From Leifsonia poae (GTDB taxonomy: Bacteria > Actinomycetota > Actinomycetes > Actinomycetales > Microbacteriaceae), in assembly GCF_027921845.1 (NCBI RefSeq), contig NZ_BSEN01000006.1, positions 301,154 through 365,153 on the forward strand: a stretch of DNA of 64,000 bases. Reading direction: 5' to 3'. The position numbers and the translations under genes were made by a program. Numbering within the stretch: the first letter of the stretch is position 1; each line of letters begins with the position of its first letter. This document shows positions 1-59,169 of this stretch, in pieces. The notes below the pieces were generated by a model. It made no database searches and was not told the origin of the DNA. It was given only the letters and a program-made list of their open reading frames with translations.

Positions 1-3000
1 CGCGGATTGTCCGCGTACTCGGCGGTTTGCTTTCGGTACTGCGAAGGCGAGGCCGGCGACAAAGGCGACCGCGCCGACGGCGGCGACCCACCAGGGGGTC
101 TCGGCCGGGATCCCGAGATAGACGCTGATGCCGAGGATGCGGGACAGGCCCCAGGGCAGCAGCGCCAACTGGTCGTTCCACAGGGTCAGCGCCTGTTCCA
201 GCCCGATCGCCCCCACGAGCGTCGCGAGGAGTGCGACCGCCGCGCCGGATGCCGCCATGACGATCCCGACCGCCCGCCGACGGCCCCATGAAGGCACGAG
301 CGACCACGCCGCACCGACGATCACCCACGCGAACAGGGCGAACGCCGCGATCGTGTACAGCGACCGGGACACCGGGTCGGTCCAGAACCCGAACCAGTAG
401 CCTCCGGGCCCGGTCGGAAGGAGGACCGCCGAGAGCAGTACGACCCGCAGCAGGCCGGCTCCGCCGACCGCGGCGAGCACGGGCAGTGCGCGGCCGCCGA
501 GCAGGCGGGTCGCTGCGACGAGAGCGGCGACGAACACGGCCCACGCGCCGAGCGTCACGACCAGGTGCGCGGGCGCTGCGAACCAGGTGAGGATGGCGCG
601 GCTGAGCACCAGGGCGACAGCGGGCGTCGCCAGGAGCAGCACACGATCAGCGACGCCCAGACCGGCCACGGCCTCCGCCGCGCGCCAGGGACGGGTGCCC
701 GCGATCACGAGTGCACGGGCGGCACGGGCGCCGGGCCAGCGGGAGACCCGCGACGCGAACCTCCCTTGCACCGGCCCGACGCCTCCCGCGACGGCGCCGT
801 AGGCCAGCCAAAGCACCACCAGTGCCAGCAGAATGCCGGACGCCCACGCCATCGGGAGGTCGCGGTCCGCGCGGTCGAGGCCGAGGTGCGCCGCGGTCAG
901 GTTGTACGCCGGGTAGTACGGGTCGCCGCCGTATTGCGACTCGTGGGCTGACGAGCTGGTGAGGAATGCCGTGCGTGCCGTCTGCCACTCGGCGTAGGCG
1001 GTGGGATCGCCGGTGTCGTTCCACTCCGCCTTGCGGAGGACCATCGCACGATAGTCCCCGAGCATCCGCAGCGTGCTCGCCTCGTACGCGAGTGTCTTCG
1101 TGAACATGCTCCGGAGCGACGGATCCTTCCAGGTCGACGGGTCCGTCGCGCCGACGAGAGCCTGCATTCGGGCGACGGCCGCGTTCGCGACCGCGCCGCC
1201 GTCGATGGCCTCATCGAGGTGGTCGCGGGAGATCGCGTAGATGACGTCGAGTGCCGCGCTGTCGCCTGTCACGATGTCCCACTCGAAGATCCACATCATG
1301 GGCGGCGGTTCGAGCCCGATCGCGAACACCCTCTTGTCGGCGTAGGGACCGATGTACAGGCCCTGCGTGATGGCCTCCCGAGAGCTCGCCATGGCCTCTG
1401 TGATGGCATGGAGGGTGGCGGGGTCGTCCGAGAACCAGCGCCGTGCCCAGCCGGCCGTCACCTCGGCGGGATCGGTGGACGGGTCCCGGGCGAGTCGCAC
1501 GGCGAGGACGGTGTCGAGTTCGGCGAGCTGCCAGAACCCGGTCTTGAGCTCGAGCGAGAGCGGGCCCGCCCGCCATGGACCGCCGTCCTGCGTCCAGGTC
1601 CAGATGCCCTCGATGTGCGGGTTCGCGGCGAGCAGCTCCTGGAACGCGGTGGCGTAGAGCGGGCCGAGGTCGTTCGGGAAGCTGCCGAAGTTCTCGAACT
1701 CGCGTCGGCTCTGGTACTCGATGATGCGTCGCTGGTCGCCGGTCTCGAGTGTCGTGTTGAGAGGGAGATGGCTGTAGAAGTCGCCGAGGGTGTACTTGGT
1801 CGAGACGATCAGGTGCGGGGAGTCGATCCCGTCGAGCACCGCGTGATACGAAGCGGGGTTCGTGTGCATGTCGCCGACCGCTCCGACCCCGACGCTCCAG
1901 CTGCGGAAGATCACCTCCCGGTCGACGTGCTCGGCCTGGGCGAGCAGCGTCGTCAGCATCGTGCGCACAGAAGCGACGGTCGTCACCGCGAGCTCCGACG
2001 TGTAATCCCAGCCCGGCAGGTCGTACACCGAGCCGGCCTCTCCGATCCGGATCAGCACGCCGTCCACGTAGGGCATCGTGCGGTAGAGCTCGTCCAGCCC
2101 TTTCGCGTACACCGACCAGAGGTCGGGGTTCTCGGTGTCGAGGCCGCCGAAGTGCTCGGTCAGGTACGCACGCAACGGCGGGGTGAGGGTGAGCATGTCG
2201 GTGCGGAAGTAGACCTTCAGCCCAGCGTCGTGCGCCGACTCCCACATCGCCCCGAACTCCTGGCGCATCGCCAGCGCCCGGGCGACATGCTCGTCGCCCT
2301 CGTGGTAGACCTGCCGGCCGTCGCCGACGTCGGAGAACGTCAGGTACTCCAGCAGCCCGGGGATGGCGATGGCCGTGTAGCCCTCGGCGAGCAGGTGCCG
2401 TACGTACGTGTCGAACTCGGTGCGTGCCGCGGCCAGCGCCACCGTGTCGACGTACGGCGCGTGCGGCAGGATGGCGTTCTCGAACGCTTTGGAGTTGTGC
2501 GAGTAGTCGTCGCCCTTCGACCATTCCTCTTCGTCGGGAACCACCCCGACGGCTCCGAGGTCGGCCATGCGGAACGGGAGTCGCGACGTGACGGTCTGCC
2601 CGAGCCGGGCGGACACCGACGTGCCGTCGCGCACCGCCGAGGCCAGGTCGTAGACGCCGCGCGCCGCCCCCGCCTCCGTGGCGGCGGAGACGCGGAGGGC
2701 GGAGGCCGTGCCGCTCAAGGTGTAGGTGTCGTCGTCCGCAGCGACGCCGGGAGCTGCGGCTCCGGTCACGTCGACCGACAGGGTCGCAGTTCCGGAGGTC
2801 GTCGCCGCTGAGCCGACGGCGTCGTCGAGCTCGGCGAGGGCGGTGGCGACTCTGGTGCTGCCGGTCGCCGCCGGGTGCAGGACCCGGGGAGGCGCGAGCG
2901 TTGCGGTGGCCGGTGCGACTGAGGGGGTCTCGGCGGGCACGTCGGACGCTTCGGACCGGATGCCGAGCGCGTCGGTGAGGACGAAGGCGATCCCCGCCCC

Positions 3001-3099
3001 GAGGGCCAGCAGGATCGCGAAGGCGACCACGGCGAGGAGGGGACGCCGTGCCGGGTGGGGGTCGCCGGCTGTCCGACGTCGTCGTCGGGGGTGCATCAT
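1..3099 (-). CDS. Membrane-anchored glycoside-hydrolase-like protein with polytopic C-terminus, partial
   Basis: This open frame has no stop before the window edge, so the 3' end of the gene is missing; 1033 codons are visible. Near the N-terminus there is an arginine-rich stretch followed by one hydrophobic segment (about residues 20-42), which is a signal anchor. Residues about 70-160 resemble the small alpha/beta domain that precedes the catalytic barrel in GH67 and GH20 enzymes. Residues about 170-700 look like a TIM-barrel hydrolase, with an IRIGEAG segment near residue 353 and a WTWTQDGGPW segment. From about residue 745 to the edge there are seven or more hydrophobic helices. An outward-facing enzyme on a membrane domain is inferred. 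ATG at 3099 is preceded by an in-frame GTG at 3102, and neither has a clear ribosome binding site. The family assignment is tentative. Confidence 0.6.
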   Translation of the reverse strand, partial: MMHPRRRRRTAGDPHPARRPLLAVVAFAILLALGAGIAFVLTDALGIRSEASDVPAETPSVAPATATLAPPRVLHPAATGSTRVATALAELDDAVGSAATTSGTATLSVDVTGAAAPGVAADDDTYTLSGTASALRVSAATEAGAARGVYDLASAVRDGTSVSARLGQTVTSRLPFRMADLGAVGVVPDEEEWSKGDDYSHNSKAFENAILPHAPYVDTVALAAARTEFDTYVRHLLAEGYTAIAIPGLLEYLTFSDVGDGRQVYHEGDEHVARALAMRQEFGAMWESAHDAGLKVYFRTDMLTLTPPLRAYLTEHFGGLDTENPDLWSVYAKGLDELYRTMPYVDGVLIRIGEAGSVYDLPGWDYTSELAVTTVASVRTMLTTLLAQAEHVDREVIFRSWSVGVGAVGDMHTNPASYHAVLDGIDSPHLIVSTKYTLGDFYSHLPLNTTLETGDQRRIIEYQSRREFENFGSFPNDLGPLYATAFQELLAANPHIEGIWTWTQDGGPWRAGPLSLELKTGFWQLAELDTVLAVRLARDPSTDPAEVTAGWARRWFSDDPATLHAITEAMASSREAITQGLYIGPYADKRVFAIGLEPPPMMWIFEWDIVTGDSAALDVIYAISRDHLDEAIDGGAVANAAVARMQALVGATDPSTWKDPSLRSMFTKTLAYEASTLRMLGDYRAMVLRKAEWNDTGDPTAYAEWQTARTAFLTSSSAHESQYGGDPYYPAYNLTAAHLGLDRADRDLPMAWASGILLALVVLWLAYGAVAGGVGPVQGRFASRVSRWPGARAARALVIAGTRPWRAAEAVAGLGVADRVLLLATPAVALVLSRAILTWFAAPAHLVVTLGAWAVFVAALVAATRLLGGRALPVLAAVGGAGLLRVVLLSAVLLPTGPGGYWFGFWTDPVSRSLYTIAAFALFAWVIVGAAWSLVPSWGRRRAVGIVMAASGAAVALLATLVGAIGLEQALTLWNDQLALLPWGLSRILGISVYLGIPAETPWWVAAVGAVAFVAGLAFAVPKANRRVRGQSA

Positions 3100-3268
3100 C
3101 ACGCGCCGGAGTGTAGCAAGAAATGGGACGGTCGTCCCAGTTCGGCGCGAAGCGCTATTCGGTGTCCCGCCGCCTGCTGATCTCCGACTCCCCTGGCACC
3201 CTCCTGGCCGAATATCCACAGCCCGCGCCCGGCACCAAATGCGTCGGCAGCGGCACCCCAGAGGACCA

Positions 3269-3290
3269 GTTCGAATCCCACGCCCTCCGC
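3269..3290 (+). other. Possible tRNA 3'-end remnant (T-loop and acceptor strand)
   Basis: The run TTCGAATCCCACGCCCTCCG reads like the T-loop, the 3' T-stem strand (CCCAC), the 3' acceptor strand (GCCCTCC) and a discriminator G of a serine-type tRNA. The 5' T-stem strand does not pair and no cloverleaf lies upstream, so this is not a whole tRNA. Such remnants can mark an attachment site left by integration. Otherwise the 345-base gap 3100-3444 holds only the stem-loop at 3406-3437. Confidence 0.3.
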
Positions 3291-3405
3291 TTGGCGGAAC
3301 AAACTCCGGGATGGCCGAGCCTATGAGCAAATGCAGCGACTCCGTCTAGAGGCCGATACTGGCCCCCTCTGAAGTCGGTCGAAGTCCGTTCGGTGAGGGT
3401 TCGGA

Positions 3406-3444: not shown

Positions 3445-6105
3445 TCAGTGCCTGGTTGTGTTGTCGATCGAGAACGAGTCGAACTGGTTGATCGCCGACT
3501 GTGCGACATCGTGCGAGGTCGAGAAGATTCCCGCATCCTGCGTCGCGGCAGCGGACGCCAGCGTCACCGGCGTCCCGACGGACACGAAGTTCGCGCCATC
3601 GTACGAGTACGCAGCCGAGAACGACGTGCCTGCGCGGGTCAACTGCACCCAGATCGGCCGATAGATGTCGATGTTCGCCTGGACTTGGGCATCGATGTAG
3701 CCATCACCGTTCGAATCCCATGCGAACACCACACCGTTCCTGGCGGTGACGGCGACCACGGCGTATCCGGCAGACGCCCCCGCCTTCGTCATGTCGTTGC
3801 GCACCATGACCCCGGACTTCGCCCAGGCATTGGCATCGTTGACCGATACCACGCGTGTAGTGACGGTCGAGCCGTCAGCGAAGGAGCCCGCACGGTAGAT
3901 CGCACCGAACTGGTCGTCGTGCTGGCCGCCGGCTCCCCAGATGTCCGCGCCCCGTGCGGCAACCCCGAAGGCGCCGCCGTGCTGGCCGAACACTGAGGAA
4001 GCCGCCGACGCGCCCGCGGTGCTCAGCCCGGAGTCAACCGGAGCGGTCGCCGGGCAGCCGGTGAAGCCGAACAGGTTCGCGTTGAGCGACGTGCGGTACT
4101 GGGCAGCGACTCCAGCGCCACAGATCACCGCCTGCGCGTCCGCCGGCCAGTTGGCGCCCGTCACCTTCACGTTGTTGGTCAGCGTGTTGTTGTGGGCGGC
4201 TGCGTTCGGAGCGGAAGCACCGCCGCTGTTGTACCAGTTGTTCCGGATGACGTTGTTGCTGGTGTTGTTGCGAAGGCTGTATGCGTTGGTGAATACGAAT
4301 GATCCGCCTTGCACAACGTTGTTCTCGTAGGTCAGCGAGTTGGATCCTTCGTCGAGATACAGACCGACGCCTGAGATGTTGAACAGGTAGTTCTTGTCGA
4401 CGACCGAGCCCGGACTCGCAGACAGGTTGTACACGGATCCGCCGTCAGCGAAGCGCGCCTTGGTATTGTGCACGAGGTTGCCTTCGACCCGGTTGTTCTT
4501 CAGAGTGGTCGGCGTCGTGTAGAGCGGGTTCCACTTGTAGTAGCCGCGGTCCACATAGTCGTTCGAGCCTCCGGCGTCGTTGATTCCCCAGCCGAAGCCG
4601 GTGTCGATGCCGTCGTACGGCACGTTCGAGACCTCGTTGTGGAGGATCTGCGCGTTCGTGACGTAGGTGCTGAGGATGCCGCTGTTGTCCTTGTAATCGA
4701 CGGACACGTGATCGATCGTGTTGTCCTGGATCAGGATGTCCTTGTTCGTCATCCGGACGTCGCTCGGGTGGTGCGCATCGGGGAGGACGCCGCCGACGGA
4801 GACGCCGTGACCGCCGTCCTCGGTGAACCGGTTGCCCACCACGTCGATGTTGCTGGCGCCGAGGCCCACTCCGGAGAGCGTTGCGTTGGCGTCGTTGCCG
4901 ATGCCGAGCGCTGACTGGCCGAGGTTGGTGAACGTGTTGCCGGTGAACGAGACCCGGTTGGCGGCGGACACCTGAACAGCGGCCGGCTCCTGGTACCAGT
5001 TCGTTCGGGCTCGTTCGAACATCTCGCAGCCACGCGAGCAGCTCGTGAATGCGTCGGTGGGGCGGTAGTCGTAGGTGCCCTTGATGTACGTTCCGTTCTG
5101 CTGGTCGGCGTAGCCGTCGGTCGACGGGCCGAGCCAGGAAGTGCCCGAGAACTGGATGCCGGCGAAGGCGAGACCCGTGACCGGCTTGTCATATGTGCCG
5201 CTCACGCTGATGAGGGACTGCAGGTGCGGAAGCTCCACGTCGAGCGTGTTGGGGTCGACCCCCGGCGCCGGCTTGTAGTACAGCTTTCCCGCTGCCGGGT
5301 CGATGTACCACTGCCCGGTGGAGGTGAGGAATCGCAGCGAGTTGTCCAGGTACCAGCTCGGTCCGGCGAGGAACGAGTTCTGGACGGTGTCCCAGCCCCA
5401 CGTGTTGTTGTCCCAGGCCGGTTGCTTCATCGTGATCTGGGTGGGGCTGATGCTCTGCACAGGAGAGTAGCGGTTGGTGAAGTCGCCCAGCGACTCGAAC
5501 TCGATGCGCCCCTGGCCGGGGAGAGTGGCGAGGTAGCTGAGCGCCGGGTTCTTGATGGTGAGACCGGTCGCCGTCGGCGTGACATCGGAATTGGCGAGCT
5601 TGATTGCGGCGCGTGGAGCGGTAACGCCGTTCACATAGAGCTGGCGGGTGTCGAGTCCCGCGGGGGTGTCGGTTTCCCAGATGCCGGTGCCCGCGTCGGA
5701 CTTGGACCATCCGGTTACCTGGGATGCGCCGGTGATCACCGGGTGCGCGCCGGGTGCCGCGGTCCAGGTGACGGTGTTGTCCCCGCCGCCGTCACCAGCG
5801 TCGAAGGTCAGGGGCTGCGAGAGCCGGTAAGTGCCGTCGGCCAGCTGTACGGTCACGTCGCCGTGCTTCACGGCCGGGCGCAGCACGTGCTGGGCGCGTT
5901 CGAGAGAGCAGGGCATGGATGCGCTGCAATGCCCAGCGTTCTTGCCATCGGGTGCCGCGTAGTAGATGGACGACGGTGCCGCCTGCGCTTCAAGCGGTAT
6001 CAACGCAGATGCGATGACGACGCCGGCCCCGAGGAGCGCGAGCATGGCCGACCTGCGTCCCCTTTGCCGTTTCGTCGATCGGTGCGTGTCTGACATCAAT
6101 GTCAT
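3445..6105 (-). CDS. Secreted right-handed beta-helix carbohydrate-active enzyme (GH141-like) with C-terminal jelly-roll domain
   Basis: This 886-residue exported protein has an RGRR-rich n-region, a hydrophobic core and an AQA-AP cleavage site near residue 43. The next part (IYYAAPDGKNAGHCSASMPC, then DGTYRLSQPLTF) is the usual opening of a parallel beta-helix enzyme. Many short N-rich turns (NTFTN, NRFTED, NNRVEGN, NNVVQGG) continue to about residue 660. The last 200 residues look like a concanavalin/DUF1349-type beta-sandwich, probably for sugar binding. The general layout fits GH141 (alpha-L-fucosidase/xylanase, known from rhamnogalacturonan II degradation) better than a pectate lyase. 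It sits beside an L-fucose-type oxidative pathway and has its own operator at 6157-6170, so release of the sugar used by that pathway is the inferred role. An AGGAAG site lies upstream of the first ATG; the fourth codon is also ATG. Confidence 0.72.
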   Translation of the reverse strand: MTLMSDTHRSTKRQRGRRSAMLALLGAGVVIASALIPLEAQAAPSSIYYAAPDGKNAGHCSASMPCSLERAQHVLRPAVKHGDVTVQLADGTYRLSQPLTFDAGDGGGDNTVTWTAAPGAHPVITGASQVTGWSKSDAGTGIWETDTPAGLDTRQLYVNGVTAPRAAIKLANSDVTPTATGLTIKNPALSYLATLPGQGRIEFESLGDFTNRYSPVQSISPTQITMKQPAWDNNTWGWDTVQNSFLAGPSWYLDNSLRFLTSTGQWYIDPAAGKLYYKPAPGVDPNTLDVELPHLQSLISVSGTYDKPVTGLAFAGIQFSGTSWLGPSTDGYADQQNGTYIKGTYDYRPTDAFTSCSRGCEMFERARTNWYQEPAAVQVSAANRVSFTGNTFTNLGQSALGIGNDANATLSGVGLGASNIDVVGNRFTEDGGHGVSVGGVLPDAHHPSDVRMTNKDILIQDNTIDHVSVDYKDNSGILSTYVTNAQILHNEVSNVPYDGIDTGFGWGINDAGGSNDYVDRGYYKWNPLYTTPTTLKNNRVEGNLVHNTKARFADGGSVYNLSASPGSVVDKNYLFNISGVGLYLDEGSNSLTYENNVVQGGSFVFTNAYSLRNNTSNNVIRNNWYNSGGASAPNAAAHNNTLTNNVKVTGANWPADAQAVICGAGVAAQYRTSLNANLFGFTGCPATAPVDSGLSTAGASAASSVFGQHGGAFGVAARGADIWGAGGQHDDQFGAIYRAGSFADGSTVTTRVVSVNDANAWAKSGVMVRNDMTKAGASAGYAVVAVTARNGVVFAWDSNGDGYIDAQVQANIDIYRPIWVQLTRAGTSFSAAYSYDGANFVSVGTPVTLASAAATQDAGIFSTSHDVAQSAINQFDSFSIDNTTRH

Positions 6106-57815: not shown

Positions 57816-57862
57816 ATGTTAATGGTTCAATAGGACCATCCCCGACCCCTTTGGAGGCCCTC

Positions 57863-58132
57863 ATGAGCATGACGCACGCGACCGACATCGTCTCTGTCTG
57901 GACCGACAACGGACGCCCCACCCGGATCGTCTGGCGTGGCACCCGCTACGTCGTCACCGATCAGCCGACACCGCTGCTGCGGGACACCTGGCACGACGCC
58001 CTGACGCACCCGGCCGGCCGGATCTTCGGCTGGCGATTCCAGGGCTGCTCGGTCGCTGACGGCGACGTGCGGATGTTCGACGTCCGCCCCGCCGCCGACG
58101 GCGGTTGGGAACTGCTGCGCACCTACGTCTGA
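57863..58132 (+). CDS. Small DUF6504-like protein
   Basis: This 89-residue protein reads VWTDNGRPTRIVWRGTRYVVTD in its first half, as in a small actinobacterial all-beta family (DUF6504-like), and ends RMFDVRPAADGGWELLRTYV. GGAGG stands 5 bases before ATG 57863. The function of the family is not established; its members often lie near DNA-repair polymerase genes, and a LigD-type polymerase lies 1 kb away, but a link is speculative. Confidence 0.65.
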   Translation: MSMTHATDIVSVWTDNGRPTRIVWRGTRYVVTDQPTPLLRDTWHDALTHPAGRIFGWRFQGCSVADGDVRMFDVRPAADGGWELLRTYV

Positions 58133-58196: not shown

Positions 58197-58547
58197 CTAG
58201 ACGGCGGCGAAAAACGAGGTGACGGTGTCGAGCGCCCCGGGGGCGAGCCGGTAATACGCCCAGGTCCCGCGCTTGCTGCGGGTCAGAAAGCCGGCGTCGG
58301 TCAGAATCTTCAAATGGTGCGACACGGTCGGCTGCGACAGTGCCAGTGGTTCGGTGAGGTCGCACACGCACGCCTCCCCATCCGCATGCGCGGCGATCAT
58401 CGACAGCAGCCGCAACCGTGCCGGGTCGGCGAGCGCCTTCAAGGCGCGGGACAACGAGATCGCATTCTCCTCGCTGATCACCTCCCCGGTGATCGGCGCA
58501 CAGCAGGCCTGCAGATCGCGCAAGGGGAGGAGCTCGATGGTCGACAT
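58197..58547 (-). CDS. arsR: ArsR-family arsenite-responsive repressor
   Basis: This repressor of about 116 residues has a winged helix with CVCDLTEPLALSQPTVSHHLKILTDAGFL. Candidate arsenite-binding cysteines are C15 and C16 (LQACCAP) plus C60 or C62, the arrangement known from corynebacterial ArsR. ATG 58547 is preceded on its strand by sequence containing the operator at 58564-58587, so binding would block both directions. The frame is open farther upstream through that operator, which is rejected as coding. It is divergent from the cysteine-rich peptide and arsC. Confidence 0.88.
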   Translation of the reverse strand: MSTIELLPLRDLQACCAPITGEVISEENAISLSRALKALADPARLRLLSMIAAHADGEACVCDLTEPLALSQPTVSHHLKILTDAGFLTRSKRGTWAYYRLAPGALDTVTSFFAAV

Positions 58548-58563
58548 GCATCGATTCTCATCG

Positions 58564-58587
58564 ATACATTGACAAACGTCAATGTAT
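58564..58587. promoter_or_regulatory. ArsR operator
   Basis: Perfect 10-bp arms ATACATTGAC (58564-58573) and GTCAATGTAT (58578-58587) are spaced by AAAC. This is the size and position typical for ArsR/SmtB sites between arsR and its target operon. Confidence 0.8.
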
Positions 58588-58638
58588 TCGTTCACCCTGG
58601 GTTCATCGACAACCGTCGATGAAGAAGGGAGAATCATC

Positions 58639-58701
58639 ATGGGATGTTGCGACGACTGCCAGACGCTGCCCGACGGTTCGTGCGCGCCTGACTGCTGCTG
58701 A
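58639..58701 (+). CDS. 20-residue cysteine-rich peptide in the ars locus
   Basis: This tiny frame encodes MGCCDDCQTLPDGSCAPDCC, 20 residues of which six are cysteine, with a near-symmetrical CC-x2-C and C-x3-CC layout. A good ribosome binding site (GAAGGGAG, 58624-58631) stands 7 bases before the ATG. It lies between the ArsR operator and arsC, 63 bases before the arsC start, so it should be induced together with arsC. Binding of arsenite or another thiophilic metal, like a minimal metallothionein, is the natural inference. Too short for standard gene finders; I know no named family for it. Confidence 0.6.
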   Translation: MGCCDDCQTLPDGSCAPDCC

Positions 58702-58764
58702 CACGTCACGGGCCGTCGCCCCTCCCGGGTGGCGGCCCACCCCAACGAATTCACGGAGACACCT

Positions 58765-59169
58765 ATGACCGACATCACGCCGACCGTCCTCTTCGTCTGC
58801 GTCCACAACGCAGGCCGTTCACAGATCGCCGCCGGTTACCTGCGCGAACTCGGCGGCGACCGCGTCCGAGTCCTCTCCGGCGGATCCGAACCGGGCACAG
58901 CATTGAACCCGGTCGCCGTTGCGGCGATGGCCGAAGAAGGAATCGACATCTCCGACCAGGTCCCTTCGATTCTGGAGACCGAGCAGGTCCGCGAGTCGGA
59001 CGTCGTGATCACCATGGGCTGCGGCGACGCCTGCCCGATCTTCCCCGGCAAGCGTTACGAGGACTGGGAACTCGAGGACCCCGCGGGCAAGGACATCGAT
59101 ACCGTCCGCCGCATCCGCGACGACATCCGGGGCCGCGTCGACGGACTGATCGCCTCCCTGCCGATCTGA
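58765..59169 (+). CDS. arsC: Arsenate reductase of the low-molecular-weight phosphatase fold (mycothiol-dependent type)
   Basis: This reductase of about 134 residues has the P-loop CVHNAGRSQ with catalytic C12 and the segments VVITMGCGDACPIFPGKRYEDWELEDPAGK and DDIRGRVDGLIASL. Lacking the third cysteine arrangement of thioredoxin-coupled ArsC, it fits the actinobacterial enzymes that use mycothiol and mycoredoxin. ATG 58765 follows GGAG by 6 bases. No arsenite pump (ArsB/Acr3) is in the window, which is a gap in the resistance pathway. Confidence 0.87.
   Translation: MTDITPTVLFVCVHNAGRSQIAAGYLRELGGDRVRVLSGGSEPGTALNPVAVAAMAEEGIDISDQVPSILETEQVRESDVVITMGCGDACPIFPGKRYEDWELEDPAGKDIDTVRRIRDDIRGRVDGLIASLPI

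Follow-up and report, generated by a model that had tools for sequence, protein, structure and literature searches.

ArsD is a folded protein of about 120 residues. Metallothioneins are small and acidic, with about 30% cysteine and few aromatic or basic residues, and cysteine attenuators are known in mycobacteria. The arsenite site of ArsD is formed by Cys12, Cys13 and Cys18, a CC-x4-C spacing (partial text of PMC4562236). In Lysinibacillus OR-15, QueF and QueE are ArsR-controlled, cysteine-based arsenic binders for which intracellular fixation has been proposed, and the same account stated in 2025 that no specific intracellular arsenic sequestration genes had been found within the ars operon (partial text of PMC12093948).

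We analysed a 64,000-nucleotide stretch of DNA (the window) from Leifsonia poae, whose genus belongs to the Microbacteriaceae. Between a divergent arsR and an arsC it holds a gene for a 20-residue peptide with six cysteines. We propose, with a probability of about 0.6, that this is a ribosomally made, arsenite-binding mini-peptide, comparable to a very small metallothionein, that would buffer arsenite in the absence of a pump gene close by. The elements of the locus are as follows.

58197..58547, minus strand: arsR, divergent ArsR-family repressor with Cys15-Cys16 and Cys60/Cys62; nearest solved relative 6j0e
58564..58587, no strand: first ArsR-type palindrome, ATACATTGACaaaCGTCAATGTAT, from a pattern scan
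58602..58623, no strand: second ArsR-type palindrome, TTCATCGACaacCGTCGATGAA, from a pattern scan
58625..58631, plus strand: Shine-Dalgarno sequence AAGGGAG, 7 nt before the peptide ATG
58639..58701, plus strand: gene for the six-cysteine, 20-aa peptide, stop included (reading frame, homologues, selection)
58710..58738, plus strand: 12-bp GC hairpin between the peptide stop and arsC (58710-58721 pairs with 58727-58738)
58765..59169, plus strand: arsC, arsenate reductase of the low-molecular-weight phosphatase type (LMWPc, PF01451), from Pfam and a solved relative

The peptide, MGCCDDCQTLPDGSCAPDCC, is read from the ATG at 58639 to a stop at 58699-58701, and its six cysteines (30%) form the motifs CC-x2-C and C-x3-CC. 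A preliminary description of this DNA had given the same length, cysteine content and motifs, and had credited the frame with a good ribosome binding site and a position downstream of an ArsR palindrome; all of this agrees with the sequence, except that the palindromes upstream are in fact two, ATTGACaaaCGTCAAT and ATCGACaacCGTCGAT, with starts 38 bp apart. Shine-Dalgarno-like sites also precede the homologous frames described below, where the scan filter itself demanded one. The gene appears to be translated from the start given here; an alternative in-frame ATG at 58582 (39-aa extension) is absent from relatives such as that at locus L045. The 20-aa frame matched no NCBIfam family and the 39-aa extension no Pfam or NCBIfam family, queries this short being insensitive.

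Neither palindrome pattern recurs in the window at up to three mismatches (shuffle mean 0.02 each). The TTGACA inside the first could serve as a -35 element; it was not listed by a promoter consensus scan. The best solved relative of the ArsR is 6j0e, named as an arsenic responsive repressor (E 2.3e-19), and that of the ArsC is 3t38, named as an arsenate reductase (E 7e-37); against the NCBIfam arsC models the ArsC scores under their cut-offs. The next called gene past arsC lies on the other strand, so that no arsenite efflux gene follows, as had been claimed. On the far side, a 93-residue frame at 57851-58132, without a Pfam or NCBIfam match, adjoins arsR, and a similar sequence is encoded near a locus (L018) of the sister genus.

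A tblastn search with the 20 residues found 16 copies of the peptide in 15 of 28 Leifsonia genomes. The same 15 genomes hold 16 ArsR copies of at least 79% identity, each adjoined by the peptide; in the other 13, ArsR matches reach 65% identity at most or are lacking at E <= 1e-20. The majority consensus of this Leifsonia type is MGCCDTDECQVLPDGSC(S/A/P)PDCC, and length differences within it are whole codons. Across 18 sequences (16 from the genus and two from the sister genus, g29), pN/pS is 0.19 and dN/dS 0.145, and the six cysteines are invariant, all 108 cysteine codons being retained with TGC/TGT changes only. Selection acts on the peptide at the protein level. Codon-level conservation in relatives was the check that the preliminary description had proposed, and a dN/dS of about 0.14 with every one of the six cysteines kept in these 18 sequences answers it in favour of the gene.

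Beyond the genus, a profile of the peptide reached only g29: of 398 genomes 27 matched, 11 of them convincingly, and the remaining 16 matches (E 0.002 to 0.1) look like chance. A search of plasmids with the Leifsonia consensus gave no match, a 22-aa tblastn being weak. We therefore turn to the neighbourhoods of relatives of the window ArsR, searched in 299 family, 28 genus and 396 order genomes, where strongly diverged, tiny cysteine-rich frames lie beside arsR (MNGCCDPEEGCCEPGCC, MDEDCCDPLTCPPELCGTGCC, MADGCCGTDASCCEGCCENGCCETSCC, MTDLTVCADCGCDPCCCQDDCC, MDECCEGCC and others). A fixed filter (a start, a Shine-Dalgarno-like site, 9-40 codons, at least four cysteines making up at least 15%, and CC within the last three residues) was applied to 125 distinct arsR loci, picked by ArsR similarity and not covering every search match. 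Within 700 nt it found a peptide in 43 of the 125. Control sequence from the same loci, 1.11 Mb in all, contained a single match, which is the tail of an ArsO-like protein; first-order shuffling yielded 0.015 matches per set. Another 40 loci (20 from lower in the family list and 20 from the order list) were then scanned at the same thresholds with the CC condition dropped, and this later set yielded five further peptides within 700 nt, all ending in CC; the near matches also end in CC under two filters that do not require it. Combined, 48 of 165 loci in 19 genera (counted by group codes) carry a peptide. A looser scan added seven cysteine-rich frames at +1266 to +1404, which we judged from position and motif to be tails of ArsO-like genes.

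A chance cysteine-rich frame is ruled out by the control and shuffle counts, the dN/dS and the recurrence in the 40 further loci, and the window frame is, on this comparison of sequences, a real and conserved small gene of ars loci. Genes of such small size are usually passed over in annotation, which would explain why the family was missed.

The family is concentrated in one taxon. In other families of the order, one of the 38 arsR loci examined carries a peptide; this is in family f10, at a locus labelled both L138 and L195, and a second search found an ArsR of that type above 66% identity in one of 47 f10 genomes. At class level, no peptide occurred at 29 other arsC loci (17 of the same family, 12 of others), which with the window make up the best 30 of a longer list. 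The preliminary description had suspected an overlooked and widespread part of actinobacterial ars loci: a conserved, large family (48/165 loci, 19 genera) does exist, but it is common in one family, the Microbacteriaceae (1/38 loci in other families of the order).

The f10 locus, L195 (genome G759), holds the sole peptide seen outside the main family and has no arsC within 3.5 kb; the gene downstream of it has a start that resembles, by eye, that of a cation-diffusion transporter. This peptide was possibly acquired by transfer.

The first set comprises 38 distinct peptides, 9-27 residues long (up to 28 with the later set), the shortest being MDECCEGCC. They contain 4-10 cysteines (31%), 21% aspartate plus glutamate, no lysine, 0.4% arginine and 0.1% tyrosine. 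Of 43 distinct forms, 37 contain the motif CC-x4-C. With the Leifsonia type set aside the figure is 26 of 30, against a mean of 5.0 and a maximum of 12 when residues are shuffled; CC-x3-C occurs in 15 of 30 against 5.1, raised because many forms hold CC-x3-CC. The window member is an exception, with a CC-x2-C that we read as a shortened form of the family motif.

Short, encoded and rich in cysteine, such peptides also recall precursors of modified peptides (RiPPs), an origin that we rate as extremely improbable: they have no leader part, and inspection of the operon gene calls by eye revealed no recurrent modifying enzyme. Clusters of cysteine, moreover, bind many soft metals, so the ligand could be antimonite, cadmium, zinc or copper, with arsenic incidental, and the arsC-less member outside the family would suit such a role. 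We nonetheless place little weight on it, given the resemblance of the window ArsR to 6j0e, the retention of Cys15 in 120 and of Cys16 in 119 of 124 aligned ArsR rows, and the presence of arsC at 35 of 43 loci.

In the first set, 36 of the 43 peptides are encoded by the frame nearest the promoter and the other seven come after arsC; in the later set the corresponding numbers are three and two. Its usual partner is arsC (35/43), which may stand before or after it. Ten of the 48 peptide loci have no arsC nearby: eight of the 43 have none within 3.5 kb, and L250 and L252 have none in the shorter stretches examined. ArsC is therefore not the local source of arsenite at these ten. A simple GC3 script for calling genes places the gene after the peptide on the opposite strand at five of the arsC-less loci (L166, L170, L179, L196 and L197). 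The peptide gene had been described as lying between an ArsR operator and arsC; this is so in the window, but across the family the linkage is to arsR more than to arsC.

The frequency of arsC on either side of the peptide raises the question of whether its vicinal cysteines are a thiol partner of ArsC, acting as reductant or resolving dithiol in arsenate reduction. The ten loci without a nearby arsC, and among them the five followed by an opposite-strand gene, argue against this, and we consider such a partnership very unlikely.

A loose ArsR-type palindrome is present in the arsR intergenic region of 47 of the 48 peptide loci, twice in 42 of them. It is also found at 69 of 82 peptide-less loci, compared with 258 of 5,000 random windows, so that these palindromes mark arsR as much as the peptide.

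A stem of at least 10 pairs, with G-T pairs and one mismatch allowed, follows the peptide stop at 37 of the 43 first-set loci; at random places the count is 96 of 827, and at the ends of other genes 22 of 118. Covariation is weak: across 13 of the 18 Leifsonia-type loci three pairs changed on both sides, where shuffles average 1.5 and attain three in 70 of 500 cases. The case for the hairpin is therefore made by the length of its stem and by its recurrence. Single-sequence folding gave z-scores against shuffles of 0.4 to -4.0, mostly weak; no U-rich terminator was found by consensus within 58400-58900, and no Rfam family scored over threshold, the single match having 17.9 bits (gathering 46.7).

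A first frame followed by a long stem is also what a regulatory leader peptide would provide, translation of its cysteine codons or binding of arsenite by the nascent chain setting the hairpin and hence arsC expression; a hairpin attenuator of an ars operon has been described in Bacillus CDB3 (partial text of PMC4562236). The window and the majority of loci do fit this in position. What lowers it as the main reading is that nine of 48 peptides are encoded downstream of arsC and five are solitary, with an opposite-strand gene next, which leaves little to regulate, while the stem persists after five of the seven post-arsC peptides of the first set and four of the five stand-alone ones. Selection, furthermore, retains the amino acids, and the peptides do not carry an arrest motif of the RAPP type reported for CruR (partial text of PMC9426467). 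The odds of a leader function thus seem to us slim.

A gene for acr3 or an ArsO-like flavoprotein lies within 1.5 kb at none of the 43 peptide loci and at 63 of 82 peptide-less ones (Fisher 6.5e-19); in the later set the figures are none of five against 29 of 35 (Fisher 7e-4). These values are not independent tests, because peptide states cluster by clade on the ArsR tree (124 of the 125 rows, one being dropped as too short): the tree has seven changes of state, and independent pairs number one on well-supported branches and seven on the best tree regardless of support. For the same reason the absence of acr3 and ArsO-like genes is an association and not proof of replacement. Eight of the 82 peptide-less loci have arsC with neither gene within 1.5 kb, so that an arsC operon of minimal form can exist without it.

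Whole-genome searches covered 41 peptide genomes (46 less the five of the later set). ACR3 occurs in four of them, all among the 12 that have an ArsO-like protein; at the limits used, the remaining 29 have neither. Within Leifsonia none of the 28 genomes, the window genome included, has ACR3 at E <= 1e-40, and the window genome has no ArsO-like flavoprotein at E <= 1e-50. It does encode, elsewhere, one distant permease of the ArsB/CitMHS type (PF02040, 56.8 bits, above the Pfam cut-off), which falls far under the cut-offs of three NCBIfam ArsB models.

MIP (aquaporin-type) channels are a known alternative exit for arsenite in other bacteria. An MIP channel gene lies between the peptide and arsC at two of the 43 loci (L175 and L190) and after the peptide at L238 of the later set.

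Next after arsenite buffering we rank a detached ArsD-like metallochaperone, which would carry arsenite to an unlinked permease, an MIP channel or ArsR. The CC-x4-C spacing shared with ArsD, the three MIP genes and the distant permease of the window genome would all suit a carrier; the peptide operons, however, contain no acr3, the pump gene searched for there, and apart from the cysteines the sequences vary too much for a shared docking face to be likely. On balance we think a carrier role improbable.

In the peptide-less sister operons, the ArsO-like proteins have CC within the last three residues in 26 of the 28 listed; two members matched the ArsO model weakly, at 49 and 61 bits (cut-off 425). 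No CC occurs in the last 30 residues of the eight ACR3 proteins listed beside them. Together with the peptides, these tails mean that one kind of operon shows a C-terminal CC on several unrelated bodies. The tail of the flavoprotein is variable, commonly LPxTGVCST...CC (L072, L082, L094, L099, L128 and others), and at L099 it has repeated SCCAPE units.

Two further arrangements were seen. At L066 the space between arsR and arsC holds an open frame of about 55 residues, some 88-250 nt from the arsR start; it ends in ACC, adding a third type of body that bears CC at its C terminus. The sister operon at L128 encodes an ArsR-ArsC fusion (HTH_5 plus LMWPc, 2310-3305) and an ArsC that carries a phosphatase-like domain (PF21234) at its N terminus (3776-4417).

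The members of this family of soil actinobacteria, then, are probably arsenite binders in settings that lack a neighbouring gene for the usual pump. The preliminary description had likewise suggested a chelating peptide that could buffer the arsenite made by ArsC, an interpretation that the present results support in part. In the arsenite-buffering model, ArsR would repress the peptide gene and arsenite would relieve the repression. A short, hairpin-ended transcript would give much peptide, and read-through would give less ArsC. ArsC would reduce arsenate to arsenite, which the vicinal cysteines (CC, often CC-x4-C, and the C-terminal CC) would hold by three thiolates, away from proteins; this buffering would operate in operons without a nearby arsenite pump gene.

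A broader proposal, to which we give even odds, is that these are an undescribed class of ribosomal arsenite-binding oligopeptides (9-28 residues, with a CC-x4-C core and a C-terminal CC), a gene-encoded bacterial counterpart of phytochelatins, which replace efflux in the minimal arsR-peptide-arsC operons of one actinobacterial family and have a similar cysteine tail fused to the ArsO-like flavoprotein of sister operons. A literature search, with subscription papers mostly outside its reach, found no description of such a peptide, and there is no mention of one in the portions available of PMC9144182 and PMC6205960. If the proposal is true, the family would be a sequestration gene inside the ars operon, of the kind that the 2025 statement above says had not been found (partial text of PMC12093948). 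Natural arsenite ligands of minimal size, MDECCEGCC being the shortest, would also become available for research, biosensors and remediation, and the question of arsenite as ligand can be tested with synthetic peptides.

Several known systems can be set beside this locus. The nearest solved relatives of its ArsR and ArsC, 6j0e and 3t38, are both from Corynebacterium glutamicum. Our reading of the alignment places no cysteine in the window ArsR at the position of Cys55 of the 6j0e chain, the third ligand there; it has Cys60 and Cys62 instead. C. glutamicum has ACR3, as a control search confirmed, whereas the window genome does not.

CruR and the cysteine attenuators resemble the window in having a cysteine-bearing frame ahead of a metal-related gene, here with a hairpin after it. 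The peptides differ in also following arsC or standing alone, and inspection of the 43 distinct ones by eye revealed no RAPP-type arrest motif. The CruR upstream frame has more than 140 codons, with CXXC and RAPP (partial text of PMC9426467), compared with the 9-28 codons found here. QueF and QueE share with the peptides ArsR control and arsenic binding by cysteine, predicted in the case of the peptides, but are full-size proteins encoded outside the ars operon (partial text of PMC12093948), whereas ours are dedicated and tiny, and encoded beside arsR.

Like metallothioneins, the peptides are small and acidic, with about 30% cysteine and almost no aromatic or basic residues; they are far shorter, lie beside an arsenic-type ArsR, end in CC and match no Pfam or NCBIfam family, short queries being insensitive. 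From ArsD, a folded protein, they differ in their 9-28 residues; the window peptide, 20 aa long and without an NCBIfam match, does not match the ArsD family and has CC-x2-C. What the peptides have in common with ArsD is the linkage to arsR, the vicinal cysteine pairs and, in 37 of the 43 distinct forms, the CC-x4-C spacing of Cys12-Cys13-Cys18 (partial text of PMC4562236).
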